From contig CAMNOU010000001.1 in assembly GCA_946546945.1 (NCBI GenBank), positions 1 through 64,000 on the forward strand: DNA of 64,000 bases, read 5' to 3'. Source of the stretch: an uncultured Lachnospiraceae bacterium (GTDB taxonomy: Bacteria; Bacillota; Clostridia; Lachnospirales; Lachnospiraceae). The notes beneath the pieces are model-generated. The model was not told the origin of the DNA, ran no database searches, and saw only the letters and a program-made list of their open reading frames with translations. How positions within the stretch are numbered: position 1 is the stretch's first letter; the number at the start of each line of letters is the position of its first letter. Below are positions 18,181-62,415 of the stretch, piece after piece. Position numbers and translations under genes: made by a program.

Positions 18181-18194
18181 AGGAGAGAACGAAA

Positions 18195-19178: not shown

Positions 19179-19191
19179 CAGATGGGAATAG

Positions 19192-21704: not shown

Positions 21705-21737
21705 TAAAAAGCTTTAGCAGAGAGTTATCATCTATGC

Positions 21738-21783
21738 ACAACAGCGCAACAAATGATATATGTTTGTTGCGCTTCTTTTTTTC
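21738..21783 (+). terminator. Intrinsic terminator
   Basis: ACAGCGCAACAAATGATATATGTTTGTTGCGCTTCTTTTTTT. Confidence 0.8.
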
Positions 21784-21891
21784 GTCAAATAATCTTGCAA
21801 AAAAAATGAATCAGGATGGAATCTAAGAAAAGCCGGAGAGGGAAACGGCAGGTATAGTATAGACAGTAAAAGATGAAAGGGAGTTAAAGGA

Positions 21892-23253: not shown

Positions 23254-23282
23254 ACAAATAATATAAGGAGAAAAAAGAAAAT

Positions 23283-24293
23283 ATGTCACAGATCAAAACA
23301 TGTGTGAGCCTTTACAGCTTGCAGAATGAGTATTTAGTTAAGAACATGACGCTGGCGGATATTATGCATTTCGTCAAAGAGCATCATGCGGAGGGCATTG
23401 AAATTCTGCCGGACCAGATGCTGAAGGGAGCTCCGGATGTATCGGATGAAACGGTTGCGGAGTGGAAGGCTCTTCTGGATGAGACCGGGCTGGATCCGGT
23501 GTGCGCAGATGTATTCCTGAACACCAACCTGTACAAGAACAGAACGCTTACCAGAAAAGAAAGCATCGCCCTGCTGATCAGAGAAATCAAACAGGCACAC
23601 AGACTGGGCATCCATCTGATCCGTCTGGTATCCATGGTACCGTACTGGGTATGTGAGCCTCTGCTTCCTTACTGTGAGAAATATGATGTGGCCATCGCCC
23701 TTGAGGTGCATGCCGGCATGGCCTTTGATATTCCGGAAACAAAAGCCTTTATCGAAGAGATGAAGCGTCTGAATTCCCCGTACGTCGGACTGGTCATCGA
23801 CACAGGTATCTTCTGCCGCAGATTCCCGAGAAGAGTGCGCGCTTATGAGACTTTGAACGGGACAAGCCCGGAGGTATTTGACTATATCGACACACTCTTT
23901 GAAAGAGGAACAGATCTGCATGCAGTCCTTGTGGAAAACAATTACCAGTATCCGCCTGAGCTTGCGGCAGCATGCAAGTCAGAGCACGACAAGATGTTTG
24001 TGCCGCTTTGTGACGGATATGAAAACTACCAATTCGAGGCTCTGGATGACCTGCTTCCCTACATTAAGCACTTCCACCTGAAGATGTTCGAAATGACCGA
24101 AGAGGGACCGGAGTACTCCATGGATTACAAAGCACTTCTGCAGTATCTTCATGATCATGACTGGAGCGGCTATGTATCAACGGAGTATGAAGGAAACCGA
24201 TTCACACTGCCGGGCGATCCGTTCGTGGAGAAAGAACAGGTGGCTGCAAATCAGGCATATGTTCAGGCCTGCTTAAAGGAAATTCAGGGATAG
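23283..24293 (+). CDS. Sugar phosphate isomerase/epimerase-like TIM barrel, probable C-glycoside deglycosidase alpha subunit
   Basis: TIM barrel with candidate ligands (IALEVHAG, VIDTGIF, KHFHLKMF, VSTEYEGN); adjacent beta-like gene. Confidence 0.78.
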   Translation: MSQIKTCVSLYSLQNEYLVKNMTLADIMHFVKEHHAEGIEILPDQMLKGAPDVSDETVAEWKALLDETGLDPVCADVFLNTNLYKNRTLTRKESIALLIREIKQAHRLGIHLIRLVSMVPYWVCEPLLPYCEKYDVAIALEVHAGMAFDIPETKAFIEEMKRLNSPYVGLVIDTGIFCRRFPRRVRAYETLNGTSPEVFDYIDTLFERGTDLHAVLVENNYQYPPELAAACKSEHDKMFVPLCDGYENYQFEALDDLLPYIKHFHLKMFEMTEEGPEYSMDYKALLQYLHDHDWSGYVSTEYEGNRFTLPGDPFVEKEQVAANQAYVQACLKEIQG

Positions 24294-24304
24294 GAGGAGA
24301 AAAA

Positions 24305-24697
24305 ATGTTTGATAATAATGTATTTCTTGAAAATACCTGCAGAAATTTTGAGGAAAACGGTGAGATTGCCGGGTTTGAGCTGCAGACCAATATCACCTAT
24401 TACCGCGGGATTCCGATGTCCATGATTGAATATGTACACGTGGCGGCAGACGGCACACAGGAGCCGGATGAGAATATCCGGATTTCCATCGACCAGGAGG
24501 ACTGGTTCACTTTAAAAGAGGCGGAGACTGTGGTCGATTACAAATGGGAATACGGCGATCCGCTCTATATCAGAGTCATGAAGGCCGGCGGACTCTCAAA
24601 AGGTGAGCATAAGGTGAAGCTGACCGTTGCAACCAGAACCGCATACATCCCGGTTCCGCTTGAAGGAATCAAAGAGCGTACAGTCATCATTGACTGA
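24305..24697 (+). CDS. C-glycoside deglycosidase beta-subunit-like protein (DUF6379 type)
   Basis: EIAGFELQTNITYYRGIPMSMIEYVHVAADG...MKAGGLSKGEHKVKLTV; paired with the alpha-like gene. Confidence 0.75.
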   Translation: MFDNNVFLENTCRNFEENGEIAGFELQTNITYYRGIPMSMIEYVHVAADGTQEPDENIRISIDQEDWFTLKEAETVVDYKWEYGDPLYIRVMKAGGLSKGEHKVKLTVATRTAYIPVPLEGIKERTVIID

Positions 24698-24769
24698 TCT
24701 CAGTCATTGGGTTATCATAGAAGACTGACGGCAGGCGATCAGCGTCTGCCGTTTTATGGAGGAATGTAA

Positions 24770-25732
24770 ATGGAGAAGAAAAAAGTACTGGGCCTTTCTT
24801 TTGGAAGAAAGATGGCCAATACAGATGTGATGATTAAAACGGCTTTGATGGAGTGTGAAAAAGCCGGATGCGAAGTGAAATTCATCCGTGTAGATGATCT
24901 GGATATCAAGCCTTGCACCGGCTGTATCTCCTGTGTTGTCGGTATGACTGCGGGATTCGGCAAGGGCGGCTGCCCGATTAAAGACGATTTTCACATTCTG
25001 GATGAAGCTTTGATGGAGTGTGATGCGGTAATCGCAGGTTCACCGACCTACGTGCTGAGCCCGACCGGCCGGTTCAAAACCGTATGCGACCGGATCGGAC
25101 CTTCCCACGACATCACCTTTCGAAAGGCAGCTTATGAGGAAGGACTGGCAGCAGGCAAGAGTGCCGATCAGCTTCCGGATCCGAGGAGTTTCAAGAAACG
25201 GGTAGCTGCCCTCATTTCCGTTGGAGGGGCCATGACTGAGAACTGGCTAGATTTCATGCTTCCGGTGATGTATGAGTTCACCATGTCTATGGGCATTGAT
25301 GTGATCGATATGAATCAGTATTACGGTGCCATGGCGCATGAGCATGTTCTTGGAAATGAAGAGCAGATGGAACGCATGAAAGAGGTCGGCAAAAACATCG
25401 TGGAAGCCCTGCAGGCTGAGACGGAAGAAGAGCGCACAAAGTGGCGCGGCAAAAAGAAAGGCGTCTGTCCGGTATGTCACTGCAATATGCTGACAATCCC
25501 GGAGGATGGCAGCACAACAGTAGAATGCCCTGTCTGCGGAATCTACGGAGAACTCGTCATCAAAGACGGGAAAATCACCGTGGAATTCTCCGAAAAGCAG
25601 CAGAAACGTTCCCGCCTTCGCTGGGACGGCAAGCTGGAGCATTCGACAGAAATCAAGACAAAAGCCGTCGGACCGGGCCAGATTCCAAACCTGAAGGAAC
25701 TGAAAAAACCGTATATCGGGTATGCAGAGTAA
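24770..25732 (+). CDS. Iron-sulfur-flavoprotein-like NAD(P)H-FMN reductase family protein with C-terminal Zn-ribbon
   Basis: Flavodoxin-like N-terminus with CTGCISCVVGMTAGFGKGGC; AGSPTYVLSPTGRFKTVCDR; C-terminal CPVCHCNML...CPVCGIYGEL. Confidence 0.8.
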   Translation: MEKKKVLGLSFGRKMANTDVMIKTALMECEKAGCEVKFIRVDDLDIKPCTGCISCVVGMTAGFGKGGCPIKDDFHILDEALMECDAVIAGSPTYVLSPTGRFKTVCDRIGPSHDITFRKAAYEEGLAAGKSADQLPDPRSFKKRVAALISVGGAMTENWLDFMLPVMYEFTMSMGIDVIDMNQYYGAMAHEHVLGNEEQMERMKEVGKNIVEALQAETEEERTKWRGKKKGVCPVCHCNMLTIPEDGSTTVECPVCGIYGELVIKDGKITVEFSEKQQKRSRLRWDGKLEHSTEIKTKAVGPGQIPNLKELKKPYIGYAE

Positions 25733-33411: not shown

Positions 33412-35796
33412 ATGTACAGATATATGAATCTTGAGGTGACAAGAAGTTATGGCAGCGGCTGGCAGTTTCATCCGGAACTGGAGGTTTTGTTTGTCATAGA
33501 GGGGGATGTCTGCGTGAAGATGAATGACGCAGAGTATTTTCTTCAGCGTGAGGATGTCATTGCGATTAACTGCGGAGTCCCGCATGAGGTCACGCACGAA
33601 CAGGATGCGATTCTTTGTATTGCAAAATATGATTATGAGCTTCTGGTTGATGTGCTGGAAAACAGAGAAGGAATTTTTCTGTGCAGCAGCGCTTCTGATG
33701 GCAGAGGGGATTACCGGAAAGTCCGGGAGGATTTTCATGAGCTGATTTATCAGTATATCCGCCGTCAGAATAAGACGGTCTGTCTGCAGAACAGCCTGAT
33801 GTTCCGGCTTCTGGATCATTTGATCGGGGAGTTTCTGGTATCCGATACCATTACGGCGGCGAAGGAAAATGAGGATGACAGAAGACTTCGGAATATTTAT
33901 CAGTATGTCAGTGAAAATTACAGATCGGGAATCAGCCTGACACAGCTGGCAGAATCACTGTTTGTATCGGCTTCGACTCTTTCCCGTTTTTTCAAAAAGC
34001 AGACGGGCATGTATTTTGTGGATTATGTCAATCAGATGAAGTGCCGGTATGCGGCCCGGAACCTGCTGTATACAAAGATGAATATTACAAAACTGGCCGT
34101 CGACTGCGGGTTTTCCAATCCTTCTGCACTCAATAAGGTGTTCCGCGAAGTATACGGGATGACGCCTACGGAATACAGGAATTTAAAACGCGGTACAGAC
34201 GAGAGGAAGGAGATGGATGCAAAGCTGCGGCTGGAGCTGAAACAGAAGGAAAAAGATCTGAATCCCTCTTTTCAGAAACCGTATTCGTCGCACATCAGTG
34301 TGGATGTGACGCAGACCGAACCATATGAAAAATGCTGGGGGCGCGCCATTAACATGGGCTCGGTATACAGCCTGACGCTGGCGAATGTGCAAGCCCATGC
34401 ACTCTATCTGACGGAACATCTGGGATTCACGCACCTGAGACTCTGGAGTGTGTTCTCACAGAAACTGATGATCACGGACGGTGTGCAGATCGGCAATTAT
34501 AATTATGATATCCTGGACAGTGTGCTGGATTTCCTGACAGAACATCACATTCGTCCGTTCCTGGATTTCGGGATACGCCCGGATTCTGTGCTCAAGGCAG
34601 AGAACCAGCCGGTTTTCTACGGGACAGAATCTGTTGAGTTTCAGTCGAAGAGAGCTTGGGAGGCAATGTTCGAAGATTTCATCGGGCATGTGGTCAGACG
34701 TTACGGAAAAGAGGAAGTGGAAAACTGGATTTTTGAGATTTCTTTTTATGAAATTCATAAAACCTCCGGGCATTATTATCAGGGAGAAGACTATGATTCC
34801 ATGGAAGTCTTTGCGCATGCGTTTCATACGGTCAAACGTGTCTGTCCGAATGCGAAAGTCGGCGGACCGGGTGCCATAGCCAACTGGAACCGGGACTATT
34901 TCCGGGATTTTGGAGAACAAATGCAGCACAGGGGTATCCGCCCGGATTTCGTTTCGTTTCTTCTGTACCCCTATACGACCAGGATGGAGGATGGACAGGT
35001 CACACACGATCGCTCGCCCGAGAGGATGTATGAACCGGAAATGGTAAAAGAAATGCGCCGACTCATGAAACAAAGCGGCCTGGACAAAAGTCTTCTTTTT
35101 ATCACGGAGTGGAATCATACCCTTTCAAGCCGGGATTATCTGAATGACAGCTGTTTTCGGGGCGCTTATATCGTAAAGAAAATCACGGAGATGTGGAAGC
35201 AGGCCGATCTGCTCTGCCTTCGAAGCGGCTCGGACTGGATCAGCAATTATTATGATACGAAAAGCATTGCGAATGGGGCAGACGGGCTGCTGACAAAGGA
35301 CAGCATACGAAAGCCGGCTTATTTTGCGCTTCGGTTCCTGAATGAACTGGGGGATGAGCTGATTGCAAAAGGAGATCATTATATCATCACAAAAGAGAGG
35401 CAGAACTACTATATTCTGTGTTTCAACTTTAAATGGTACGGGCTTCCCTTTTTTGTCAATGAGGAGCGTGGGTATTCACCGGAAGCCCCGGAATCATTTT
35501 TTGAAGATAAGGCGGCTTTTGATCTGGAAATTATCCTGCAGTCAATGCCGGAAAATGTGCCGTATGTGATCAAGAGCAGGACGGTCAATGGGCAAAACGG
35601 AAGTCTCCTGGATGAATGGAAGAAGTTTCAATATGATAAGCGTCTGACGAAACAGGATATCAAATATATCAGAGAGAACTGTTTTGCACGGATGATGATG
35701 GAAAGGCAGATTGTCAAACAGGGAAAGCTCTCTGTCAGAAGAACATTGATGCCGCATGAAATCACTTTCATACAGATTTATGAAGATGAACTTTAA
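33412..35796 (+). CDS. AraC-family regulator fused to a GH39-like domain
   Basis: Close paralogue of 19308..21704; cupin, AraC HTH and GH39-like region with FITEWNHTLSSRDYLNDSCFRGAYIVKKI. Confidence 0.9.
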   Translation: MYRYMNLEVTRSYGSGWQFHPELEVLFVIEGDVCVKMNDAEYFLQREDVIAINCGVPHEVTHEQDAILCIAKYDYELLVDVLENREGIFLCSSASDGRGDYRKVREDFHELIYQYIRRQNKTVCLQNSLMFRLLDHLIGEFLVSDTITAAKENEDDRRLRNIYQYVSENYRSGISLTQLAESLFVSASTLSRFFKKQTGMYFVDYVNQMKCRYAARNLLYTKMNITKLAVDCGFSNPSALNKVFREVYGMTPTEYRNLKRGTDERKEMDAKLRLELKQKEKDLNPSFQKPYSSHISVDVTQTEPYEKCWGRAINMGSVYSLTLANVQAHALYLTEHLGFTHLRLWSVFSQKLMITDGVQIGNYNYDILDSVLDFLTEHHIRPFLDFGIRPDSVLKAENQPVFYGTESVEFQSKRAWEAMFEDFIGHVVRRYGKEEVENWIFEISFYEIHKTSGHYYQGEDYDSMEVFAHAFHTVKRVCPNAKVGGPGAIANWNRDYFRDFGEQMQHRGIRPDFVSFLLYPYTTRMEDGQVTHDRSPERMYEPEMVKEMRRLMKQSGLDKSLLFITEWNHTLSSRDYLNDSCFRGAYIVKKITEMWKQADLLCLRSGSDWISNYYDTKSIANGADGLLTKDSIRKPAYFALRFLNELGDELIAKGDHYIITKERQNYYILCFNFKWYGLPFFVNEERGYSPEAPESFFEDKAAFDLEIILQSMPENVPYVIKSRTVNGQNGSLLDEWKKFQYDKRLTKQDIKYIRENCFARMMMERQIVKQGKLSVRRTLMPHEITFIQIYEDEL

Positions 35797-38328: not shown

Positions 38329-38387
38329 TGAGAACAGGCAAATCATAAAATAATAACTAAATTCTATTCATTTTAATCTAAAATATT

Positions 38388-38430
38388 AAAAAAACCGTGA
38401 AAAGATTAATTTTTTACGGTTTTTTTATTC
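38388..38430 (+). terminator. Intrinsic terminator
   Basis: AAAAAACCGTGAAAAGATTAATTTTTTACGGTTTTTTTATT. Confidence 0.75.
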
Positions 38431-38533: not shown

Positions 38534-38926
38534 ATGGCTGGCAGACAGATTTATAATCCGGATGGATTCAAAAACACGCAGACGGACGGGACGATTACCG
38601 GGTATGAGTTTCAGTTCAAGGCACAGTATTACAGGGGGTTTACTTTGTCGATCCTGCGTGACATTCAGGTAAACATGGACGGGGAAGATGTCCCGCGTGA
38701 GGATGTGCGCATTACTGTGAACGGAAGTACATTTACTCTGGAAGAGGCCCGCACCGTGATCGATCCGGAACTGCGCTGGGAGTTCGGAGAGTTCGCGACG
38801 ATTTCCGTAGTCAAAGAAGGCGGACTGAAACCCGGAAAACATCATATTTGCGCGAAGCAGATCATCGCACCTTCCTACATGCCGTTTGTGACTGAGGCAG
38901 TATGTGAAGCGGATTTTGAAATTTAA
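38534..38926 (+). CDS. C-glycoside deglycosidase beta-subunit-like protein (DUF6379 type)
   Basis: TITGYEFQFKAQYYRGFTLSILRDIQVNMDGEDVPREDVRITVNG...VKEGGLKPGKHHICAKQ; paired with the alpha-like gene. Confidence 0.75.
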   Translation: MAGRQIYNPDGFKNTQTDGTITGYEFQFKAQYYRGFTLSILRDIQVNMDGEDVPREDVRITVNGSTFTLEEARTVIDPELRWEFGEFATISVVKEGGLKPGKHHICAKQIIAPSYMPFVTEAVCEADFEI

Positions 38927-38950: not shown

Positions 38951-40009
38951 ATGAGCCACAATATAAAGAGAAGTGTTTCCCTGTACAGTTATCAGGATGA
39001 GTATTATGATGGAAAACTGGATCTGGAAGGATGCCTGCGCGAGACGGCGAAGGCCGGAGCGACGGGTGTGGAGCTTCTGGCAGAGCAGATGATCAAGAAG
39101 TTCCCGCTGCCGATCGAGACACAGGAATTCCGTGATCAGTGGTTTTTCTGGCTTCACAAATACGGCCTGGAGCCGTCCTGTTATGACGCCTTTTTAGAGA
39201 ATCATATTTATGACAACCGTACCTTAACGTTAAAAGAACAGATCAACATGATGTGCCGTGATATCCGTCTGGCATCTCTGCTCGGATTCAAGAATCTCCG
39301 GACACTGGTATCCACCCCGATGGATGTCATTGAGGGAAGTCTTGACTATGCTGCGAAGATGGATGTGAAGATCGGAATCGAGGTTCACGCACCATTTTCT
39401 CTGAACTCCGGATGGGCGGACGGATATATGGAGATGATCTTACGGACCGGAACCCGTCACTTCGGCTTCATTCCGGATATGGGTATCTTCTGCAGAAACA
39501 TCCCGGATGTGCTTCGCGACAAGGCCAGAAGAATGGGCGCGAAAGAGGAGTGCATCAAGATCGTGGATGATGCTTACGCACAGAGAATCGAGAAGGGATT
39601 TGTCAAGATCAAATATGATCTGGATCTCGGCAAGGCAAATATGGAATACCGTATGGCGAACGGCATGAAGGAAATGATGGAAGCGGTTGAGAAAGCCGGA
39701 GGCGGTCCTGCCGACATGATGTATGCCGGATCATCCTTTACATATTCCTGGTCCGAGCCGCAGGATATCATTGACAATATTAAATACATTTATCATACAC
39801 ATGCCAAATTCTACAATGTCAGCGAAGACTATGTGGAGACGGCGGTAGCGATTCCTGAGGTGATTGAGGCTTATAAGAAGGCCGGTTACCAGGGCTTCTT
39901 AAGTTCCGAATATGAAGGCGGAGAACATCTGCGTTATCACGGGCCGGTGGACAGCATTGAGCAGGTACGCCGTCATCAGGAAGCAATGAGAAGAGCGATC
40001 GAAGGTTAA
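38951..40009 (+). CDS. Sugar phosphate isomerase/epimerase-like TIM barrel, probable C-glycoside deglycosidase alpha subunit
   Basis: TIM barrel with candidate ligands (IGIEVHAP, FIPDMGIF, HTHAKFYN, SSEYEGG). Confidence 0.78.
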   Translation: MSHNIKRSVSLYSYQDEYYDGKLDLEGCLRETAKAGATGVELLAEQMIKKFPLPIETQEFRDQWFFWLHKYGLEPSCYDAFLENHIYDNRTLTLKEQINMMCRDIRLASLLGFKNLRTLVSTPMDVIEGSLDYAAKMDVKIGIEVHAPFSLNSGWADGYMEMILRTGTRHFGFIPDMGIFCRNIPDVLRDKARRMGAKEECIKIVDDAYAQRIEKGFVKIKYDLDLGKANMEYRMANGMKEMMEAVEKAGGGPADMMYAGSSFTYSWSEPQDIIDNIKYIYHTHAKFYNVSEDYVETAVAIPEVIEAYKKAGYQGFLSSEYEGGEHLRYHGPVDSIEQVRRHQEAMRRAIEG

Positions 40010-40021: not shown

Positions 40022-41002
40022 ATGATGGAGGGTAAGAAGTTGAAAGTATTAGGTATTTCTATGGGCCGCAAAAATGAACGCAGTGATATCTACTGCAAGC
40101 AGGCTCTGATGGGTGTGGAAGCTGCGGCAAAAGCATCCGGAAAAGACATCGAGGTAGAATTTATCAACACGGTAACCATGAATATCGGACAGTGCCGCGG
40201 CTGCGGGGCCTGCAGCAAGGCTCCGGACGGAATCATTAAGTGTATCATTCCGGATGACTACCTTACGCTGGAAGAGAAGGTGCTGGATGCGGACGGAATC
40301 ATCATTGCCGCTCCGGTTTACTCGGTCGGCATCGTTGGCCAGCTGAAGAACTTCCTGGATCGTTTTGGCGCAGCACATGACCGCGCGTCTATGCTTGAGG
40401 AGCAGAAGGCCCGTGAAAAAGAAGGGCGCCCGCTTTTGGATGCGCGTTACTTCAAAGACCGCTACTGCAGTTATGTAGCTGTCGGCGGAGCGTGGACAGA
40501 AGACTGGACAAGCTTTGGTCTTCCGATGATGCATCTGTTCAGCTGTTCACAGGCGATGAAGGTCGTTGGACAGATCAATGCCAATGATCAGGGCCGCAAG
40601 ACAAGTCCTTTCCTGGATCCGCCTATGATGGAAGATGTATTTAAGATGGGAGAGAACCTTGCGAACAATCTGGGCGTTCCCTATGATGAGACAACCTGGT
40701 TCGGCAAAGAAGGTACCTGCCCGGTCTGCCATCTGGATTTCCTGATGGTAAACGGCACGAACAAGGTGACCTGTCCGGTCTGCGGTATCCACGGACTGGT
40801 GGAGATCGATGGTGAGAAGATGAAAGTGACCTTCCCCGAAGAGCAGATCAAGCGTGCCCGCAACACCATCCCCGGATTGTATGAGCATCACAATGAGATC
40901 GCGGAGATGATGCGGATCTGCATTCCGCTGCTTCAGGAGAAAAAAGAGTTCCTGGATGAAAAGAAAAAAGAGTATATGGCTTACAAACCGAAGTGGTCAT
41001 AA
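40022..41002 (+). CDS. Isf-like flavoprotein with C-terminal Zn-ribbon (divergent paralogue)
   Basis: CRGCGACSKAPDGIIKC; AAPVYSVGIVGQLKNFLDRFG; CPVCHLDFLMVNGTNKVTCPVCGIHG. Confidence 0.8.
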   Translation: MMEGKKLKVLGISMGRKNERSDIYCKQALMGVEAAAKASGKDIEVEFINTVTMNIGQCRGCGACSKAPDGIIKCIIPDDYLTLEEKVLDADGIIIAAPVYSVGIVGQLKNFLDRFGAAHDRASMLEEQKAREKEGRPLLDARYFKDRYCSYVAVGGAWTEDWTSFGLPMMHLFSCSQAMKVVGQINANDQGRKTSPFLDPPMMEDVFKMGENLANNLGVPYDETTWFGKEGTCPVCHLDFLMVNGTNKVTCPVCGIHGLVEIDGEKMKVTFPEEQIKRARNTIPGLYEHHNEIAEMMRICIPLLQEKKEFLDEKKKEYMAYKPKWS

Positions 41003-41074
41003 AATAAGCCGATAAAAAGGGGCTTCCGTGATCCGGAGGCCCTTTAATAATTAAAGTTTGTTTTGGGTGGAAGA

Positions 41075-42304
41075 ATGAAACGATACAATTTCGGGCGGAA
41101 GCACTGGACCATCATTATCATATGCTTTTTCTTATTCCTGCTGACCAATGCCTGTACATCGGACGGTGAGAACGTCATCCTGCCAAAGCTGGCAGCCTTT
41201 CACGGCTGGGATTACTCCCGGATGCTGGTGCTGGCGACTGCTGCGGGATGCTTAAGCATATTCGGATCCCTGATCATCGGAAGGATCTGCGAAAAAAAGG
41301 GCGCGAAGTTTACCATTATACTGGGACTTTTCTTAAGCGCGGGGTTTGTGTTCCTGTATGGAGCGGCGCCGACGATGTGGGCTTACGCAATCGGGCTGTT
41401 CGGCGCGATCTGCGCGGGACAGGGAATCTCCTATTTCGGCGCAAATGCGCTGATCGCAAATTGGTTTCCCTTAAAAAAAGGCCTTGCCATGGGAATCGTT
41501 TCGGTCGGCCCGCCGGTATCCACAATCATCATGGTCTCCGTGCTCACCTTTCTGATCAATTCCTTTGGACTGATCCCGGGCGTGCTGACCATCAGCGCGG
41601 TCCTGATCGTCATGGCTGTCATCTGCGGCATTTTCATCTGCGATACGCCGGAAATGTGCGGGGAGACACCGGACAACATGCCGAAGGAAGAACTGGAACA
41701 ATTTGCGGTGCAGGAAGAGCAGACACAGAGTCTGAAGCTGGCTGATCTGGTGAAAATCAGGGAATTCTGGTTTATCATCATCATCATCGGCGTGTGCAGT
41801 CTTTCCCAGACCGGAGTTATGGCGCAGTTTATTGTGCGGTATACGGACAGCGGATTTGCGGAGAACACGGCCATCCTGATGATGTCGGTGTGTGCGGCGG
41901 TCGGGATATTCGGGAGCGTTCTCGTCGGCTATGTGGAAAACCGGCTCGGAACGAAGAAAGCATATGCGGTGTTTGCGGTGGTCTTCGCCGCGGCACTCAT
42001 TCTGAATTTTACCAACATCCGGGCGCTGATGGTTGTATCGATCCCGATGTTCGGGTGCGTGATCACACTGCTGCAGATTTTTCTCCCATCCTTCGAAATT
42101 ACAGTGTTTGGAAGAAAGAATTTCAAAGCGGCAAATGGGATTATCTTTCCCATTGTCAGTATGGCAGGGCAGCTGACCTTTCTGCTGATCTCGGTATGCT
42201 TACGGGTATTTGGCCAGGTGCGGTATGCCTATCCGGTTTTCGCGGCGCTCCTGCTGGTCACCCTGATTTTTAATGCCGGGATGCCAAAGGAAGAGCAGCG
42301 TTAA
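41075..42304 (+). CDS. MFS transporter, OFA-like
   Basis: 12-TM-like; GAICAGQGISYFGANALIANWFPLKKGLAMGIVSVGPPVST. Confidence 0.85.
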   Translation: MKRYNFGRKHWTIIIICFFLFLLTNACTSDGENVILPKLAAFHGWDYSRMLVLATAAGCLSIFGSLIIGRICEKKGAKFTIILGLFLSAGFVFLYGAAPTMWAYAIGLFGAICAGQGISYFGANALIANWFPLKKGLAMGIVSVGPPVSTIIMVSVLTFLINSFGLIPGVLTISAVLIVMAVICGIFICDTPEMCGETPDNMPKEELEQFAVQEEQTQSLKLADLVKIREFWFIIIIIGVCSLSQTGVMAQFIVRYTDSGFAENTAILMMSVCAAVGIFGSVLVGYVENRLGTKKAYAVFAVVFAAALILNFTNIRALMVVSIPMFGCVITLLQIFLPSFEITVFGRKNFKAANGIIFPIVSMAGQLTFLLISVCLRVFGQVRYAYPVFAALLLVTLIFNAGMPKEEQR

Positions 42305-42381
42305 GGCCGGACTGATTGTTTTTCCGGCATGGATTATACAAAAATAAACAGTATCATAATTGTGAAAAAGGAGGTCTGAAC

Positions 42382-43386
42382 ATGAGTATACTGGACCAGA
42401 TTTATGAAAAGGCCAGACAGAATCCTCAGAGGGTAGCGTTCCCGGAAGCATTGAATGAAAAAATGATGCAGGCTGCCTATGAGACAGGGAAGGATCAATA
42501 TATTATCCCTGTTCTGGTCGGCGATGCGGATGAAATCAGAAAAGCCGCATCGGAGCGGGGGTATGATCCGGATGTATTCGAGATCGTTGACATCAATGAA
42601 GAGACCTATAAGAAGGAACTGATCGACCGCTACGTGGCAATCCCGACGACTCTGTTAAAAGAGAAACCGCTGAACCGCCGTATGCAGAATCCGCTGTTTT
42701 ATGCGATGGTCATGCAGGCTGTCGGCGATGCGGATGTAACCTTTGCGGGCATTGACAACACGACGGGAGACGTGCTTCTGGCAGGACAGACCATCATCGG
42801 TCTGAAGCCGGGCATCAGCACCATCTCCAGTATCGGACTCTGCGACATCCCGGGATATGAAGGAAGCGAAGGATCCCTTCTGGCGGTCGGAGACAGTGCG
42901 GTATGCACGAACCCGAACCCGGAGCAGCTGGCGAGCATCGCGATTTCCGCTTGTGATACGGTATCGACTCTTCTGAAATGGGAGCCGAGATGCGCCATGA
43001 TCAGTTATTCGACACTGGGAAGCGGCGAGGGAGAGCTGATCGACAAGGTAAAAGAAGCTTTGAAAATTGCCAATGAGCTCCGTCCGGATCTCGATATCGA
43101 CGGCGAGTTCCAGCTGGATGCGGCGATCAAGCCGGAAGTAGCTGCAAAGAAGGTAAACCGTGAGAGCAAAGTGGCGGGAAAGGCAAATGTGCTGATCTGG
43201 CCGGATCTGAACGTTGGAAACACAGCCGTGAAGCTGATCCAGACCTTTGGACATGCAGATGCTTACGGGCCCATGCTTCAGGGATTCAACAAAGTGGTCT
43301 GTGACTGCTCCAGAGGGGCGCCTGTTTCAGAGATTAAGGGGAACATAGTGATTTCTGCCGTTCGCGCGGCAGCAGAGAAAGAGTAG
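42382..43386 (+). CDS. Phosphate acyltransferase (phosphotransacetylase/phosphotransbutyrylase family)
   Basis: RVAFPEALNEKMMQAA...GQTIIGLKPGISTISSIGLCDIPG...LIQTFGHADAYGPMLQGFNKVVCDCSRG; followed by a butyrate kinase. Confidence 0.88.
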   Translation: MSILDQIYEKARQNPQRVAFPEALNEKMMQAAYETGKDQYIIPVLVGDADEIRKAASERGYDPDVFEIVDINEETYKKELIDRYVAIPTTLLKEKPLNRRMQNPLFYAMVMQAVGDADVTFAGIDNTTGDVLLAGQTIIGLKPGISTISSIGLCDIPGYEGSEGSLLAVGDSAVCTNPNPEQLASIAISACDTVSTLLKWEPRCAMISYSTLGSGEGELIDKVKEALKIANELRPDLDIDGEFQLDAAIKPEVAAKKVNRESKVAGKANVLIWPDLNVGNTAVKLIQTFGHADAYGPMLQGFNKVVCDCSRGAPVSEIKGNIVISAVRAAAEKE

Positions 43387-43394
43387 GAACCGAT

Positions 43395-44501
43395 ATGAAA
43401 AAATATAGAGTATTTGCGATCAATCCGGGCTCAACGTCTACCAAGATTGCCCTGATTGAAAACGAAGAAGTCCTGTTCTCTAAAAACGTTTCCCATGAGG
43501 CTTCAAAGCTGGCGGAATTTCAGGAGATTTCCGATCAGATGCCTTACCGGAAAGAAACGATCCTCGGCCTTTTGAAGGAGAGCGGAGTTTCCCTCGACGG
43601 GATCGATGCCTGCGTCGGACGCGGCGGCGGACTGCTCGCCATGGAAGGCGGCACCTACGAGATCGATGATCTGCTTTTGGACCATGCGGTAAGAGGCGCG
43701 AACGGGGTGCGGCATCCGGCTCAGTTAGGGCCCCAGCTGGCAAAAGAATTTGCAAAAGAGTATGGCTGCCCGGCCTTTGTTGTGAATCCGCCGGATGTTG
43801 ATGAACTGCAGGACCTGGCGAGACTGACGGGAATCAAGGGCGTCAACCGCATCATCCACCTGCATGCGCTGAATCTGAAGGAGACGGCAATCCGCCATGC
43901 GGCATCGCAGGGCAAAAAATACGAAGAGCAGAATTATATCGTCTGCCATATCGGCGGCGGCATTTCCGTATCGGCGCACAGAAGAGGAAAGATGGTCGAC
44001 GGATATGATATCGTGGGCGGTGAGGGGCCTATGGCGCCCACCAGAAGCGGCTCCGTATCGGTTGCCGATCTGCTTGCCTATGCCAAAGACAGGGATCTTT
44101 CGGAAGTCAAAAAAGTCTGCACAAAGACCGGCGGACTGGTCAGCCATCTGGGAACGTCGGATGCGCTCGAAGTCAGCAACCGGGCTGCGGCGGGAGATCC
44201 CTATGCGAAAATGGTGTGGGACACCATGATTTATCAGATCTGCAAATGTATCGGATCGATGGCAGCGGTCCTTCACGGAGACGTTCAGGGGATTCTGCTT
44301 GGCGGCGGCATGGTGTACAATGACAATCTGGTCGCACAGATCAGGGAAGCATGTGAGTGGATTTCTCCGGTTTATCCGTATCCGGGTGAATTTGAGATGG
44401 AAGCCATGGCTTCCGGGGCGATCCGCGTGCTGACCGGCGAAGAGAAGGTAAAGAAATATACCGGAAAACTGGTCTGGGACGGATTTGATTTTGAGAAGTA
44501 G
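43395..44501 (+). CDS. buk: Butyrate kinase family acyl kinase
   Basis: INPGSTSTKIALIENEEVLFSKNVSHEASKL; VCHIGGGISVSAHRRGKMVDG. Confidence 0.93.
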   Translation: MKKYRVFAINPGSTSTKIALIENEEVLFSKNVSHEASKLAEFQEISDQMPYRKETILGLLKESGVSLDGIDACVGRGGGLLAMEGGTYEIDDLLLDHAVRGANGVRHPAQLGPQLAKEFAKEYGCPAFVVNPPDVDELQDLARLTGIKGVNRIIHLHALNLKETAIRHAASQGKKYEEQNYIVCHIGGGISVSAHRRGKMVDGYDIVGGEGPMAPTRSGSVSVADLLAYAKDRDLSEVKKVCTKTGGLVSHLGTSDALEVSNRAAAGDPYAKMVWDTMIYQICKCIGSMAAVLHGDVQGILLGGGMVYNDNLVAQIREACEWISPVYPYPGEFEMEAMASGAIRVLTGEEKVKKYTGKLVWDGFDFEK

Positions 44502-44626
44502 TTATTACAGAAATGTTATAACGGACGAGCGAATCTGTATTAGAAATTGATAAGAGATAAAGCTATAATAAAGCTATCAAAGAAATGGGGATAACCCGGA
44601 AAAACTATCAGACGGAGGTTTTTATT

Positions 44627-44866
44627 ATGTCAAGAGAAGAAGTATTAAAGAACATGATCGAGTTTGCGGCAATGGCTTTCAAGAAGGATGCTTCTGCCAT
44701 CACAGAGAACACCGATATCGCAGAGGAGCTGGGCGTTACCTCTATGCAGCGTGTAGCGATGAGCGCTTCCATCGAGAATGAGTATGATGTCATGATCCCT
44801 GTTGCAAAATTCGGAAACTTCAAGACCATCGGCGATCTTGTTGATTACGTGATGGACGAGATGTAA
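44627..44866 (+). CDS. Acyl carrier protein
   Basis: Small acidic helical protein; EELGVTSMQRVAMSASIENEYDVMIPVAKFGNFKTIGDLVDYV with Ser in the TSM context. Confidence 0.85.
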   Translation: MSREEVLKNMIEFAAMAFKKDASAITENTDIAEELGVTSMQRVAMSASIENEYDVMIPVAKFGNFKTIGDLVDYVMDEM

Positions 44867-44892
44867 GACAGCCAGAGTAAAAGGAGAATGAC

Positions 44893-46185
44893 ATGGTACA
44901 CAACGTAAAACTTGGAAAAAACATGAGAGGTGTTTCCATCGTCGGAATCGGTGCGACCCCGTTCTTCAGCGCGGTTGAGCCCGGTTCCCCCTATGCCGGC
45001 CTGACACACGGGGAGCTGTTTGGCTATGCGGCTCTGGATGCCATGAAAGATGCCGGTGTTGAGCCGAGGGATGTACAGTATTTCTTCCATGGAGCTGCCA
45101 ACCCGGGTATTCTGGAAAAATGTATTACACCAAACCTTCAGGTAGCAGACTGGTTCGGTATGAGAGGAAAGGGATCTCTCTCCCATTCCGAGGGATGCTG
45201 TACCGGTTATATCGCGCTGGAGGAAGCTGTTTTTGCAGTAGCCAGCGGAGCGTATGATATCGTACTGACGGGTTCCTGTGACATGGGAACCGGCATGCCG
45301 GACGGCAATACTCCCGCACACATGAGAGTGCCGCTGACATCAGAAGTGCTCTTCCCGGATCTGGATTCCATTTTTGACCGTGCCTACGGCAGATACTTAG
45401 GCGGCGGCCCGGGCATGAACCATGATGACTGGATCAACTATTACGCAAAAGAGAATGGCCTGACTGCGGATCAGGTGGATGACGTACTGAACCATCAGGC
45501 TTATCATTTCCGCCGCGCCGGAGCTCTCTGCCCGCGCGCAATTCGCCGCAAGACCTTTGATGAACTTGCTGCGGAGGCCGGTTATGATGATGTATGGGAA
45601 TACATGAAATCCCCTTACAACCCGAAGATGTCCCAGTACTTAAGAACATCCAGCGATTCCTGCGTAGCCGACGGCGCTGCGGCATGCATCGTTGTCCCGA
45701 CTGAGATTGCGCATCAGTTCAACGCGAAACCGGTCGAGGTGCTCGGCACAGGCGCATCCGTACTGGATGCGATCGTTCCTCATCTGGAAAAGAAAGCGAC
45801 TGCTGAGGCAGCCCGTCAGGTCTATGAACTGACCGGACTGACCCCGGACGATATCGATCTTTTGTTTGTCAATGACTTTATCGGCTCTTCCGCATTCCTT
45901 GTGGCTGAGGAAGTGGGCTATCTTCCGAAGGGAGAGGGCTGGAAATACGCATTAGACGGCAGACTTGCCTACGACGGAGACAAACCGATGAACACCAACG
46001 GAGGAAGGACCTCCTATGGCCACGCATTCGGAGCTTCCGGAATGGCGGATGTCTTTGAAGCAGTTACACAGATGCGCGGCGAAGCCGGAGAGCGTCAGGT
46101 AAAGAAATTACCGAAACGCACGTTCTTAAGAGGATTCGGCGGAGCACAGAATGTCCGTGCGATGATTCTGGAATCGAAGTTTTAA
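44893..46185 (+). CDS. Thiolase family protein (SCP-x / PhlC-like)
   Basis: VSIVGIGATPFF, GCCTGYIALEEAVFAVASGAYDIVLTGSCDMG, C-terminal NTNGGRTSYGHAFGASGMADVFEAVTQMRGEAGERQV. Confidence 0.85.
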   Translation: MVHNVKLGKNMRGVSIVGIGATPFFSAVEPGSPYAGLTHGELFGYAALDAMKDAGVEPRDVQYFFHGAANPGILEKCITPNLQVADWFGMRGKGSLSHSEGCCTGYIALEEAVFAVASGAYDIVLTGSCDMGTGMPDGNTPAHMRVPLTSEVLFPDLDSIFDRAYGRYLGGGPGMNHDDWINYYAKENGLTADQVDDVLNHQAYHFRRAGALCPRAIRRKTFDELAAEAGYDDVWEYMKSPYNPKMSQYLRTSSDSCVADGAAACIVVPTEIAHQFNAKPVEVLGTGASVLDAIVPHLEKKATAEAARQVYELTGLTPDDIDLLFVNDFIGSSAFLVAEEVGYLPKGEGWKYALDGRLAYDGDKPMNTNGGRTSYGHAFGASGMADVFEAVTQMRGEAGERQVKKLPKRTFLRGFGGAQNVRAMILESKF

Positions 46186-46198
46186 GGAGGCATAAGAC

Positions 46199-46639
46199 AT
46201 GAGTACACAGACGATCAGTACAATCGATTTCTGGAACAGAGAGCATATTGTTGAGAAGTTCTGGAACGGTTTAAAAGATGGCGTAATCTACGCCAGAAAA
46301 TGTACAGAGTGCGGCGCCATCGAATTCCCGCCGCATCTGGCATGCAATACCTGCGGTTACCACGAGACAGAGTGGACGACCCTGAAAGGGACCGGCGTAT
46401 TAAAGAGCTTTGTATTTACCGGCATCCTCAATGCGCGAATGGAACTGGAAGACAGAAACTTAAAATATGTCTGCGGTGAAGTACAGTTCGACGAAGGCCC
46501 TTCCATCAATGCCATCATTCTCGGAATCAACAAGAGAAAAGGCAGAGAAATCGAGAACAAGCTTCCGGTGAGAGTAAAGCCGGTGTTCTACGATATGGGA
46601 AGATATACGACATTATTCTTTGAACTGGATGAAGAGTAA
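46199..46639 (+). CDS. DUF35 Zn-ribbon/OB-fold protein (thiolase partner, PhlB/ChsH2-like)
   Basis: YARKCTECGAIEFPPHLACNTCGYHETEWTTLKGTGVLKSFVFT. Confidence 0.9.
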   Translation: MSTQTISTIDFWNREHIVEKFWNGLKDGVIYARKCTECGAIEFPPHLACNTCGYHETEWTTLKGTGVLKSFVFTGILNARMELEDRNLKYVCGEVQFDEGPSINAIILGINKRKGREIENKLPVRVKPVFYDMGRYTTLFFELDEE

Positions 46640-46746
46640 TCCGTAATATATGTGAATCGAAACAGCAGATTTGATGACGAATCATAAAAAGGATGGCGGC
46701 GAGCTATCCTTTTTGTTATAATGACCAGTAAAAGGGGTGATATCGT

Positions 46747-53228: not shown

Positions 53229-55586
53229 TTGAGGAGGATCGTTATGTCTGAACAATTGAATCTTCTGCTCTGTGCGGATAATGTTCGTAGAGAGCACAGA
53301 CATCAGGACGTAGAATTGATCTATGTTCTGCAGGGAAACCTGATGATTTTTATAGACCGGCAGGGTTTTGCGGCATCTGCAGGAGATATTCTGGTCATTA
53401 ATTCTGATTGCCTGCATTCGTGGAAGAGTCACAGCCAGGTGCTGATTTTTCAGATAAAGATAGATTATTTTTACCTGAAAAAGATCTTTCCGAATGAATC
53501 GGTCGTTTTTTGCTGCAACAGTGTACAGGAACCGGACAGCGATTACGGAAGAATCACATACCTGCTTGATAAAATGATAGAGAGCTGCAGTCTGAAAGAC
53601 AGGACACTTTATCTTCGCAGCATCTATTTTGCGCTGTGGCAGAGCATAACAGACAAGTATCGGATTAGAGCAAAGCAGAAAGAGCGGGATGAACGTATTC
53701 TGGGCATTCTGGAAGATATCCATACAAATTATCAGCAAACCATCCCGCTTTCCGTCATGGCCGGCCGGTGGTATATGTCAGAATCATCCTTTTCTCGTTT
53801 TTTCAAAAAGCATACGGGAAGTCATTATAGTGAATATTTGAGGAATGTCCGTCTGGAGCATGTCTGCGATGCATTGCTGCATACGAGGCTGACGATTACG
53901 GAAATAGCCGGCCGATGCGGATTTGCAAATGAATCGGTGCTGAACAAAAATTTTCGGAAACGCTTTCAGATGTCGCCGAAAGAATACCGGGTGAACCACG
54001 CCCCGGATGCCGAATCTCCGGATAGCCGGCCGATGGAAAAACAACTGGACAAATTTCTGGAAGAAACGCTCAATAAGAGCAGGGGAGCAGTTCAGGAGGC
54101 GGGCAGGGACAGGATCGTATACATGGATGATAAACAACTCCGGCAGGATGTAGAACTTTTGTGCATGAACGCCGGACTGGCTTCCGACCTTCTGACGGGC
54201 AAGATGCAGGAGCATGTGCGGATCATTACGGAAAACCTTGGCGTGAAATATCTGCGGGTCGTGAATCTGTTCGATGAGAGGATGAGCGTATGGTCCGGGA
54301 GGGATCCGTCGAAGCCGAATTTTGAGTTGATTGACCATGTTCTGGATTTCATCCTGGGATTGGGAACTATCCCCATTCTGGAATTGCCTGAAAATCCCAG
54401 AAAGATGATATATCGGATCGGCAACGATGCGGCGGGAGTGCAAAAAAGCTGCATCTATGATCTGCAGCAGTGGCTTTTTTTGCTGGATGCATTTTTGCGT
54501 CATCTGGTCGGACGATATACGCTGCGGGTTGTGGAAACCTGGCGAATCGAGCTTCGGGATGATCCGGAACAGGAAGTGTTCGGCAGTATCCCGTATCTGT
54601 TGTTTTATGAACAATCATACAGGATCATCCGCAGATACTTACCGGATAGTTCTATTGGTGCCTGCGGACTGAATCCGGACATGCTTCCGGAACGCCTGAA
54701 ACAGTATCTCGTTTACTGGAAACAGAATGAGAATCGGCCGCAGTATCTGACTATGATTACTTATCCCTACCGAGTCAGGCAGGAAATGGGCAAATATGAA
54801 CTTCTAAATATTGAGTCGGATACGGATTTTGTAAAAAAGGCGGTAGACAGATACAGAGTGTTTTTGCTGGATAACGAATACCCGGAGACCCCAATATGGG
54901 TGACGGAATGGAATACCTCTTTGTCGGAACGTAACATTTATAATGACAGCTGCGCAAAGGCATGTCATATGCTGATGCAGATGGCTTCCCTGGCGGGAGA
55001 TGAAACAGTGATGAGCTATAGTAATCTCAGCGATTACAGATCCATGTTTTTTGAGGCGGAGCTTCCGCTGAAAGGGGCGACCGGGATGCTTTCGAAAGAC
55101 GGACTGTATAAACCGGCTTATTATGCCATGGAATTCTGGATGATGCAGGGGAAGTATCTGCTGGGATATGGTGAGAATTATGTGGTCACGGCAGAAGAGG
55201 ATGGCAGTATCTGTATTCTTGCCTTTCATCCGCAGACGTTCAATTACAGTTATTATATGAAACCAGAAGATGAGTGGACAGTAAAGGACCTGCCCTATCT
55301 GTTTGATGACACAAAGGAACGCAGGCTGTCATTTCTGATCAGAAATATGAAAAACGGGAGGAAAAAAATCCGAAGATACCGCGTGAGGGCGGAGGAGGGA
55401 TCGGTCTTGTCTGAGTGGGCAAAGCTGGGGTATGAAAAAAACCTCTTTTCGAAAGAGATTTCCTATCTTCAGAATTTGTGTACGCCGAGGCTTGAGATAG
55501 AGCGGCTGGAGGTATCTCAGGAAGAGGGAAGGATCGAGTTCTCAGTGGAACCGAATGAAATGACGCTGATTACGATAACAGAATAA
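53229..55586 (+). CDS. AraC-family regulator fused to a GH39-like domain (divergent member)
   Basis: Cupin N-terminus, AraC HTH (SVMAGRWYMSESSFSRFFKKHTG...NFRKRFQMSPKEYR), GH39-like region with IWVTEWNTSLSERNIYNDSCAKA. Confidence 0.87.
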   Translation: MRRIVMSEQLNLLLCADNVRREHRHQDVELIYVLQGNLMIFIDRQGFAASAGDILVINSDCLHSWKSHSQVLIFQIKIDYFYLKKIFPNESVVFCCNSVQEPDSDYGRITYLLDKMIESCSLKDRTLYLRSIYFALWQSITDKYRIRAKQKERDERILGILEDIHTNYQQTIPLSVMAGRWYMSESSFSRFFKKHTGSHYSEYLRNVRLEHVCDALLHTRLTITEIAGRCGFANESVLNKNFRKRFQMSPKEYRVNHAPDAESPDSRPMEKQLDKFLEETLNKSRGAVQEAGRDRIVYMDDKQLRQDVELLCMNAGLASDLLTGKMQEHVRIITENLGVKYLRVVNLFDERMSVWSGRDPSKPNFELIDHVLDFILGLGTIPILELPENPRKMIYRIGNDAAGVQKSCIYDLQQWLFLLDAFLRHLVGRYTLRVVETWRIELRDDPEQEVFGSIPYLLFYEQSYRIIRRYLPDSSIGACGLNPDMLPERLKQYLVYWKQNENRPQYLTMITYPYRVRQEMGKYELLNIESDTDFVKKAVDRYRVFLLDNEYPETPIWVTEWNTSLSERNIYNDSCAKACHMLMQMASLAGDETVMSYSNLSDYRSMFFEAELPLKGATGMLSKDGLYKPAYYAMEFWMMQGKYLLGYGENYVVTAEEDGSICILAFHPQTFNYSYYMKPEDEWTVKDLPYLFDDTKERRLSFLIRNMKNGRKKIRRYRVRAEEGSVLSEWAKLGYEKNLFSKEISYLQNLCTPRLEIERLEVSQEEGRIEFSVEPNEMTLITITE

Positions 55587-60350: not shown

Positions 60351-60477
60351 AAGAGAACTCCTTATTATTACACTATCGTTATAAGTAAATCATAAGCAGG
60401 GGAAAAGGAAAAGTCAATTGTATTTCAGGGGCATATCACGTATAATGGAAAAAAAGTTCCGTCAAAGGAGGATTCGG

Positions 60478-62415
60478 ATGAAGGAGTTGGCGCTGCATGC
60501 GAGGCAGAAAAGGCTGTTATCGATTTTGAATATCAGTCACGGTATTGAGACCGGCAAGGCTCTGGCGGAGAAAGTAGGTGCATCGGAACGCACGGTACGC
60601 AGTGATATCCGCGAGATCAATGAGCAGCTGAAACCTTATGATATCCGGATCGTGCCCCTGCATGGAAAGGGATATACCCTGTCGATTCCGGACCGGGCAC
60701 TGTTCCTGAAACTTCTGTCGAAACAGGAAACGTACCTGACGCGGGAAGACCGGCTTCGGGCACTGATGTTTTATCTGCTTCGTGAAAATGAGTGGGCGCA
60801 GCTGGGGCATCTGGAGGATGAAATGTATATCAGCCGGACGACGCTGGAAGGAGATTTGAAGGCGATCCGTAAGCGGATCAGCTCCCGGCATCCGTATCTG
60901 AAGATGCAAAGACAGGGCAGTGCCGTGAAACTGGAGGCAGATGAAAAGAAGCGCAGAGATCTGCTGATCCGTCTTTATGCGGAAAACTGGGATTATGATT
61001 CCCGGGATGGAATCGTGCTGAAGGAAGATGAATTCGGGAAGGAAATCCTGGAGGAAATCCGTGCTGTTGTCAAAAAATATCTGCAGGGCTATGCATTCAA
61101 TCTGGATGATTTCAGCCTGATTTACCTGACCCTTGCCATTGCCGTCATGTATTACCGCATTCAGGATGGAAATGCGCTGTCCTGTGAAGCGGAAGAAAGC
61201 CGGAAGGATCAGGCAGGGGACGCGGCCCGGGATATTCTGAATGAACTGGGCGAACTCTGGAAACTGACGTTTGAAGAGGGTGAGTATTGCTGGTTTTCGG
61301 ATATCCTCAGGAAAATTCAGGTGTTAAATAATCATACTTATAATAAAAACCAGATTCTGGAATGCACGGATGTGCAGTGCCATCAGATCGTCAATCAGGT
61401 GTTGAAAAGCATTGAAGATGATTACGGGATGGATTTTACCTCCGACGACAGATTGTTCGTGGATATGGTCATTCATGTACAGGCGCTTTTTTGCGGAATC
61501 GTGGCCGTTCAGATGCAGAACCACATGCTGGGGGATGAATTGCGCAAGAGATATCCGTTTCTGGGAGAGATCGCGCATGGAATGCGGCTGCAGCTGGCCA
61601 GACTGTGCGGTATGGATCTGGACAGCGGAGAGGAGGATTATCTTCTGCCGTTTTTGATTTCCGCTCAGAGGACCAGTTACAGGCGGAAACGGGGAAAGGG
61701 TATCCGCGCGGTTGTGATCAGCCACCTGAATGCCAGCCTGACGCATTATCTGATTGAGCAGCTTTTGCGCCGTTACGGGAAAGTGCTGGATCTGAACGGA
61801 CCGCTCCCTGTCTATGCCCGCGAATATTCAGAGGGACTGGATCCGCAGCTTTTGATTACGACTGTTCGCCTGCAGGACTTTAAAAACATTTTTCAGGTTC
61901 CGGTGGTCACGGTATCGGCTCTTCTGGAGGAGAGTGACTGCAATAGGATTGATGAACAGCTGACACTGATCAGGAACCGGCTGCTCTATCCGGGACTTCC
62001 GGTCAATGCGGAGCATTATTTTAAAGAATCGCAAATGTACGGTCTCGATAACGGAGAAAGCATGCAGACGGCTGTCCGCCGGATTCAGCAGCGGATGTAT
62101 GAAGACATGGATGAAATCGATGCCCGGCTGCTGGATCTGAACAGGGATTATTATTCTATCCGCAGAAACGGACTGGTATTTTTCTGCCAGACGGACGAGC
62201 GTGTGGACGAATCCCGCGCGGCGCTGGTCTATCTGAAGAACCGGATTTACTGGAACTATACGCGCAATGTTGAATATGTATTTTATCTGGTCCTGACGCC
62301 AAAGGAACGGCGCTATCTGGGATGGTTCTATTATCTGGCGGATGTTTTTGCGGAACATCCTGACAGGCTGAGGGAGAATATTGAGAAAAAGAAACTGAAT
62401 CCGATTGAGTTGTGA
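60478..62415 (+). CDS. BglG/LicR-like HTH-PRD transcriptional regulator
   Basis: LLSILNISHGIETGKALAEKVGASERTVRSDIREINEQLKPYDIRI; PRD-like and EIIB-like regions. Confidence 0.75.
   Translation: MKELALHARQKRLLSILNISHGIETGKALAEKVGASERTVRSDIREINEQLKPYDIRIVPLHGKGYTLSIPDRALFLKLLSKQETYLTREDRLRALMFYLLRENEWAQLGHLEDEMYISRTTLEGDLKAIRKRISSRHPYLKMQRQGSAVKLEADEKKRRDLLIRLYAENWDYDSRDGIVLKEDEFGKEILEEIRAVVKKYLQGYAFNLDDFSLIYLTLAIAVMYYRIQDGNALSCEAEESRKDQAGDAARDILNELGELWKLTFEEGEYCWFSDILRKIQVLNNHTYNKNQILECTDVQCHQIVNQVLKSIEDDYGMDFTSDDRLFVDMVIHVQALFCGIVAVQMQNHMLGDELRKRYPFLGEIAHGMRLQLARLCGMDLDSGEEDYLLPFLISAQRTSYRRKRGKGIRAVVISHLNASLTHYLIEQLLRRYGKVLDLNGPLPVYAREYSEGLDPQLLITTVRLQDFKNIFQVPVVTVSALLEESDCNRIDEQLTLIRNRLLYPGLPVNAEHYFKESQMYGLDNGESMQTAVRRIQQRMYEDMDEIDARLLDLNRDYYSIRRNGLVFFCQTDERVDESRAALVYLKNRIYWNYTRNVEYVFYLVLTPKERRYLGWFYYLADVFAEHPDRLRENIEKKKLNPIEL

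Follow-up and report, generated by a model that had tools for sequence, protein, structure and literature searches.

The question raised by the locus described here is why a thiolase should be encoded together with its own acyl carrier protein (ACP) and with enzymes that can turn an acyl thioester into an acyl phosphate and adenosine triphosphate (ATP), all of them downstream of genes for C-glycoside cleavage. The locus lies in a stretch of 64,000 nucleotides (the window; positions 1 to 64,000 of the forward strand of contig CAMNOU010000001.1, assembly GCA_946546945.1) from an uncultured Lachnospiraceae bacterium, in which open reading frames (ORFs) were called by codon-usage scoring. Six ORFs with good coding scores follow one another on the + strand within 41075–46639.

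41075–42304, + strand: major facilitator superfamily (MFS) transporter, OFA/monocarboxylate-like (Pfam MFS_1, E 1.5e-25; ORF open from a TTG at 41063)
42382–43386, + strand: phosphotransacylase, a Pta-like member of PTA_PTB (PF01515, 289 bits; ORF open from 42316, with a ribosome-binding site and ATG at 42382)
43395–44501, + strand: acyl kinase of the butyrate kinase family, BUK (TIGR02707, 392 bits, cut-off 289)
44627–44866, + strand: dedicated ACP (PF00550, PP-binding, 39.5 bits; ORF from 44585)
44893–46185, + strand: SCP2/PhlC-type thiolase-fold acyltransferase (Thiolase_C_1, 113 bits)
46199–46639, + strand: DUF35 partner subunit, Zn-ribbon plus OB (PF12172, zf-ChsH2, 30.5 bits; OB_ChsH2_C below cut-off)

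The six-gene set that the first-pass annotation had listed is confirmed, and the module is both genuine and recurrent. Some of the labels given to its members do, however, need adjustment. The transporter belongs to MFS_1 but is only OFA- or monocarboxylate transporter-like, scoring 55 bits against TIGR00890 (OFA; cut-off 375) and 106 bits against the L-lactate MFS model NF049980 (cut-off 320); related MFS genes stand near the thiolase in loci L047, L061, L066 and L085. Phosphotransacylase and kinase both belong to the families named, although the former scores better with the Pta models (243–271 bits, short of their cut-offs) than with those for Ptb (67–76 bits; the Ptb equivalog TIGR02706, whose cut-off is 410, gives 67 bits). 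Likewise, the designation SCP-x thiolase suits the fold and not the SCP2 motif HDCF, which reads NDFI in this protein.

On this anatomy, energy-conserving C–C deacylation is the best-supported reading, and it appears reasonably probable that the genes form an ATP-yielding catabolic retro-Claisen module in the breakdown of glycosides or polyphenols. In such a scheme a β-dicarbonyl (or an equivalent C-acyl group), arising in the breakdown of the glycosides handled by the linked 3-keto/C-deglycosylase enzymes, would be attacked by Cys102 of the thiolase/DUF35 complex with the assistance of His377, and its C–C bond would be broken. The acyl-Cys intermediate would then pass to the phosphopantetheine thiol of the dedicated ACP, instead of or before coenzyme A (CoA), after which the Pta-like enzyme would exchange the thioester for phosphate, either directly or following transfer to CoA, and the butyrate kinase homologue would release ATP and the free acid. 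The deacylation proposed at first reading is thereby upheld in its anatomical part (ACP, PTA, BUK and linkage), whereas its direction, acyl acceptor and substrate, together with the ATP yield, are what we infer from that anatomy.

The gene content, the invariant catalytic residues, the dedication of the ACP and the genomic linkage can be read directly from the DNA. The nucleophilic Cys (C102) and the histidine of the GH motif (H377) are present in 89 out of 89 full-length thiolase homologues and align with Cys88 and His347 of PhlC, the residues responsible for forming and supporting the acyl-enzyme of PhlABC (PMC6392133). The second thiolase Cys is absent from the family, its CxG site being F/Y415-G-G, and HDCF is replaced by N327-D328-F329. 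This absence does not rule out thiolysis, since BbsB, a genuine thiolase, also lacks a second Cys at the aligned position. The predicted structure (AF2; pLDDT 88.9) has SCP2 thiolases among its Foldseek matches, the closest folds being the Pyrococcus furiosus thiolase 7yvy, the archaeal thiolase/HMGCS complex, PhlC-type acyltransferases and BbsB; by fold and sequence together, the best matches are DUF35-type thiolases and acyltransferases. The resemblance to a PhlC/PhlB pair lacking PhlA, as remarked upon in the first-pass annotation, holds good in that the equivalents of Cys88 and His347 are present, DUF35 is adjacent and no PhlA/HMGCS-like subunit is found among the genes annotated around the module or the recurrent neighbour families examined.

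The partners of the thiolase were counted in 48 non-redundant thiolase loci with 5 kb on each side, by six-frame searches with hidden Markov models. A DUF35 gene is adjacent, within 1.5 kb and on the same strand, in all 48, and an ACP gene lies within the same distance, again on the same strand, in 44, such that the grouping of the three is more than chance and the description of the ACP as dedicated is justified. Loci with an ACP occur across the main clades of the thiolase tree. One clade with good support is marked by a fusion of DUF35 to two ACP domains; the genome of the window contains two such DUF35-ACP-ACP copies, each followed by a gene for an acyl-ACP thioesterase (PF01643 + PF20791), an enzyme which adjoins paralogous modules. 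A phosphopantetheinyl transferase is encoded within 5 kb of the thiolase, on either strand, in 11 of the loci, and the one within the window is the only PF01648 match found in the genome assembly (92% complete):

15121–15759, − strand: Sfp-type phosphopantetheinyl transferase (PF01648, 60 bits)

From the DUF35-ACP fusions, the adjacent transferases and the thioesterases, acyl-ACP is a credible and well-supported candidate for the intermediate. Indeed, the module also encodes, in its Pta-like phosphotransacylase and butyrate kinase homologue, the enzymes able to conserve an acyl thioester as ATP, as had been claimed for it.

The linkage to glycoside breakdown starts with the cassette directly upstream.

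38534–38926, + strand: C-deglycosylase β subunit, DgpB/DfgB, DUF6379 (PDB 9m3a_B 2e-17, 7bvs_B, 7bvr_B)
38951–40009, + strand: C-deglycosylase α subunit, DgpC/DfgA (PDB 8qvc_A E 3.9e-67, 7bvs_A 7e-41, 7bvr)
40022–41002, + strand: NADPH-dependent FMN reductase family protein (PF03358, 50.6 bits)

Both subunits are homologous to solved C-deglycosylases, and proteins of the FMN_red family flank the module elsewhere too, as in locus L075. In a sample of 299 genomes of the same family, only 10 of which have a close thiolase homologue, C-deglycosylase β genes occur in 19 genomes and in 8 of those 10, against 0.64 expected (p = 2e-9, in a test which, like the other co-occurrence tests here, ignores relatedness between genomes). 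Where a genome has both the thiolase and an orthologue of the window-type β subunit, the two lie no more than 20 kb apart in 14 of 28 cases, 0.9 being expected from uniform placement, and all 14 proximal pairs share a strand. In locus L160 the two C-deglycosylase genes, β then α, run on into thiolase, DUF35, ACP, BUK, MFS and PTA as a single array, in which no gap exceeds about 90 bp. The C-deglycosylase cassette ahead of the module in the same orientation, from which the first-pass annotation argued, is real, and the linkage between the two is supported.

Several points weigh against the retro-Claisen reading. The kinase and phosphotransacylase reactions are reversible. Moreover, PTA is encoded within 5 kb of the thiolase in 25 of the 48 loci and BUK in 21, that is, in about half of them only, so that ATP may not be formed in every case, or the genes used for it may lie elsewhere. 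The module ACPs all carry the pantetheine Ser (68 of 68), but the Asp that precedes it in the DSL motif of the ACPs of fatty acid synthesis is found in 0 of 68; the window ACP reads GVTSMQ at this site, while two other ACPs in the same genome carry DADSLD, and phosphopantetheinylation of the module ACPs is accordingly a presumption. Furthermore, loci in Coriobacteriia with the same five-gene array have no C-deglycosylase β gene nearby, from which it follows that the module is not specific to C-glycosides. Finally, in the window itself a stable hairpin separates the module from the cassette, as is seen from the signals around the two sets of genes.

38387–38427: 18-bp hairpin 5′ of the C-deglycosylase genes, with A- and U-runs on its flanks, probably a bidirectional terminator
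41017–41045, + strand: 12-bp hairpin that separates the C-deglycosylase cassette from the transporter, with a weak U-run, a possible terminator or attenuator
44541–44569, + strand: promoter-like site TAGAAA-17-TATAAT ahead of the ACP-thiolase-DUF35 part (consensus scan only, 10/12 matches)
46684–46716, + strand: hairpin with a 14-bp stem and U-rich tail 3′ of DUF35, the likely module terminator

The hairpin at 41017–41045 folds at −21.8 kcal/mol over a 60-nt stretch (z −3.75), which makes co-transcription of module and cassette uncertain, albeit possible; the one at 46684–46716 folds at −22.8 kcal/mol over a 91-nt stretch (z −2.6). Directly past the latter is an AAA-ATPase_like gene (PF09820; 46747–48015), of a family unrelated to the module.

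Which half of the glycoside would supply the β-dicarbonyl is a separate matter. The first-pass annotation favoured the aglycone or a phloroglucinol-derived diketo acid, a suggestion which is doubtful for the subtype found here. Most genomes with the thiolase subtype of the window contain neither PF18089 (DAPG/phloretin hydrolase) nor BKACE (the family to which triacetate acetoacetate-lyase belongs), which leaves them without the steps known for phloretin hydrolase and triacetate lyase, and phloroglucinol or triacetate as the general substrate was rejected on this ground. The flanking genes of this subtype in other Lachnospiraceae encode an OYE-family reductase, Fe-ADH, a class II aldolase, a 2-hydroxyacid dehydrogenase, an FGGY kinase, a ThuA-like protein, MFS transporters and a BglG-type regulator. 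In the genome of the window the same set begins with such a regulator:

60418–62415, + strand: PRD/BglG-type regulator

Past the window, up to ~73 kb on the contig, there follow an FGGY kinase, OYE, Fe-ADH, class II aldolase, 2-hydroxyacid dehydrogenase and ThuA. The enzymes that flank this subtype hint at the sugar half of the glycoside no less than at the aglycone. In its open form 3-oxo-glucose is a 1,3-dicarbonyl, and it is thus a conceivable substrate for a retro-Claisen cleavage. According to passages of one study of C-deglycosylation (PMC10539306), C-deglycosylases release a hexose enediolone whose next conversion had yet to be identified and should yield 3-oxo-glucose. For the subtype of the window a sugar-derived dicarbonyl appears somewhat likelier than the aglycone, and a tentative proposal is that an ACP-dependent catabolic thiolase splits the dicarbonyl of the sugar half (hexose enediolone or 3-oxo-glucose) to give acyl-ACP and then ATP.

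The foremost alternative takes the substrate to be phenolic, with the thiolase/DUF35 pair thiolytically cleaving a C-acylphenol such as phloretin, or a dione derived from phloroglucinol, in an energy-saving alternative to the reactions of phloretin hydrolase or triacetate lyase. The PhlC-like Cys/His centre would suit such chemistry, and vinylphenol-reductase-like flavoproteins neighbour other modules. Moreover, PF18089 hydrolases, present in 20 of the 299 genomes, are found in 6 of the 10 thiolase-bearing ones (0.67 expected, p = 7e-6), and genes of the phloretin-hydrolase family adjoin modules in loci L064 and L069, on contig C18 of the window's genome and, between two modules, in genome G230. 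Judging from gene neighbourhood, a paralogous subtype does have such a phenolic context, and for the DUF35-ACP-ACP subtype we lean slightly to a phenolic substrate. It is not the context of the window's subtype, which is flanked by sugar-type enzymes and mostly occurs in genomes with neither PF18089 nor BKACE; the window's genome already has seven PF18089 and three BKACE genes elsewhere, and at the position aligned with His56, which is essential in PhlC, the thiolase has A69, with a conserved H66 three residues off. On balance, a phenolic substrate is possible but rather doubtful.

That the pathway runs in reverse is unlikely. Here the kinase and phosphotransacylase would make acyl-ACP, from which thiolase/DUF35 would C-acylate an acceptor in the manner of PhlABC or MucABC, both of them acyltransferases among the fold matches; ketosynthase-like enzymes are also seen in biosynthesis together with an ACP, a phosphopantetheinyl transferase and an acyl-ACP thioesterase. 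The neighbours of the module are, however, catabolic (C-deglycosylases, hydrolases, and MFS and ABC transporters of the uptake type), its linkage to glycoside breakdown is strong, and there is no recurring set of tailoring or export genes. Equally improbable is an ordinary CoA-dependent β-ketoacyl thiolase, in which the ACP would be a leftover or structural and take no part in catalysis. The nearest solved relatives, the archaeal DUF35 thiolases and BbsAB, do use CoA, but the ACP is kept, with its invariant Ser, in nearly all loci, is fused to DUF35 in one clade and is accompanied in several loci by a phosphopantetheinyl transferase or an acyl-ACP thioesterase. The recurrent neighbour families that were examined include no acyl-CoA dehydrogenase, hydratase or acyl-CoA ligase, and a standard fatty-acid thiolase was rejected because no β-oxidation genes were seen among those neighbours. 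A retro-aldolase of the Ltp2/Sal type is very improbable in spite of the same fold and DUF35 pairing (9myr and 6ok1 are among the fold matches), because the catalytic residue of those enzymes is a Tyr within a YDHF/YDCY motif and the nucleophilic Cys is replaced in Sal by Gly (PMC12329534), whereas the module thiolase lacks the Tyr motif, reads NDF and has an invariant nucleophilic Cys, on which residues this candidate was rejected.

Some further observations concern related genes. The genome of the window (2.8 Mb) has, for its size, many genes of the DAPG/phloretin-hydrolase family (seven) and of BKACE (three). One paralogous thiolase module in it (locus L144, G000:C18:20001-40000, positions 2483–18884) comprises genes for a ferredoxin, an SDH-like flavoprotein, an FeFe-hydrogenase, a PucR-type regulator, the thiolase, DUF35-ACP-ACP, an acyl-ACP thioesterase, a UROD-like protein, a DAPG/phloretin-hydrolase-like protein, PTA, BUK and an MFS transporter; a similar cluster occurs on contig C17 of genome G230. 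In loci L064 (2140–6354) and L069 the module is followed by a gene of the metallo-β-lactamase fold, BUK, two divergent DAPG_hydrolase genes and a SnoaL-like gene. In Coriobacteriia the thiolase-DUF35-ACP-PTA-BUK array stands beside genes for fumarate-reductase-like flavoproteins, NuoG/GltD- and NuoF-like proteins and FMN reductases.

With regard to C-deglycosylation, the window contains a second group of paralogous genes at 17713–25732 (two C-deglycosylase β paralogues, a TIM-barrel isomerase, a GPH symporter and an FMN reductase), and C-deglycosylase β matches in the genome number six in all. Three window proteins (19182–21704, 33412–35796 and 53229–55586) combine an AraC-type sensor/helix-turn-helix part with a GH39-like domain (PF01229), and two of the three adjoin C-deglycosylase-type genes. 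High GH39 counts have been reported for Catenibacillus (PMC11170127), part of which may represent such regulators rather than xylosidases.

Set beside known systems, the module appears to be a new form of DUF35-type thiolase system, one that has an ACP of its own and is coupled to acyl-phosphate chemistry. With PhlABC, the Friedel–Crafts acyltransferase of Pseudomonas protegens (PDB 5m3k; PMC6392133), it shares the catalytic Cys/His, the DUF35 (PhlB) partner and C-acyl chemistry via acyl-Cys; it differs in its ACP and acyl-phosphate/ATP enzymes and, as far as the alignment shows, at the His56 position. The archaeal thiolase/HMGCS complex, together with the P. furiosus thiolase the closest match by fold and profile, also has a Zn-ribbon/OB partner, but it uses CoA in mevalonate synthesis, has HDCF/HDAF in place of NDF and lacks an ACP. 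BbsAB, the benzoylsuccinyl-CoA thiolase (7pxp, 7pyt), is likewise catabolic and two-subunit, with an integrated Zn-finger subunit and no second Cys at the aligned position, although both its substrate and its acceptor involve CoA and it has no ACP, kinase or phosphotransacylase. Ptb-Buk and Pta-Ack follow the same end logic, from thioester through acyl phosphate to ATP, which the module joins in one cluster, with a Pta-like phosphotransacylase, to a putative ACP-linked C–C lyase. The phloroglucinol pathway of Clostridium scatologenes (PGR-DPGC-TfD-TAL), as set out in passages of PMC10470551, likewise cleaves a β-diketone anaerobically and makes ATP later by kinases, but there a Zn-dependent BKACE lyase is responsible and those passages describe no DUF35 or ACP. 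Similarly, the window cassette is homologous to the DgpABC/DfgABCDE systems of Lachnospiraceae, yet the passages of PMC10539306 on these do not mention a thiolase/ACP/kinase module. No description of the gene combination was found in the searchable literature, whose coverage excludes most subscription journals, in keeping with the first-pass remark that it could not be named.

Homologues of the thiolase were found at 77 loci in a scan of species genomes, mostly in gut and rumen Lachnospiraceae, with more distant loci in Atopobiaceae, Coriobacteriaceae, Clostridium, Erysipelotrichaceae, Oscillospiraceae and Anaerolineales. Since some species that carry the module are in culture (Catenibacillus scindens, Extibacter muris, Faecalicatena contorta, Faecalicatena orotica, Pseudobutyrivibrio, Agathobacter ruminis and Collinsella phocaeensis), experiments are feasible, and the gap noted in passages of PMC10539306, the metabolism of the hexose enediolone from C-deglycosylases, becomes testable. 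Retro-Claisen steps in the anaerobic breakdown of polyphenols and glycosides are known as hydrolyses or as the reactions of BKACE lyases. If the retro-Claisen reading is true, a thiolase that conserves the energy of the bond in acyl-ACP and ATP would give gut anaerobes a new route to gain from such compounds, and ACPs, usually biosynthetic, would acquire a fermentative role. Were the dicarbonyl of the sugar half to be the substrate, the module would in addition answer what becomes of the sugar after C-deglycosylation, with acyl-ACP being used for substrate-level phosphorylation.

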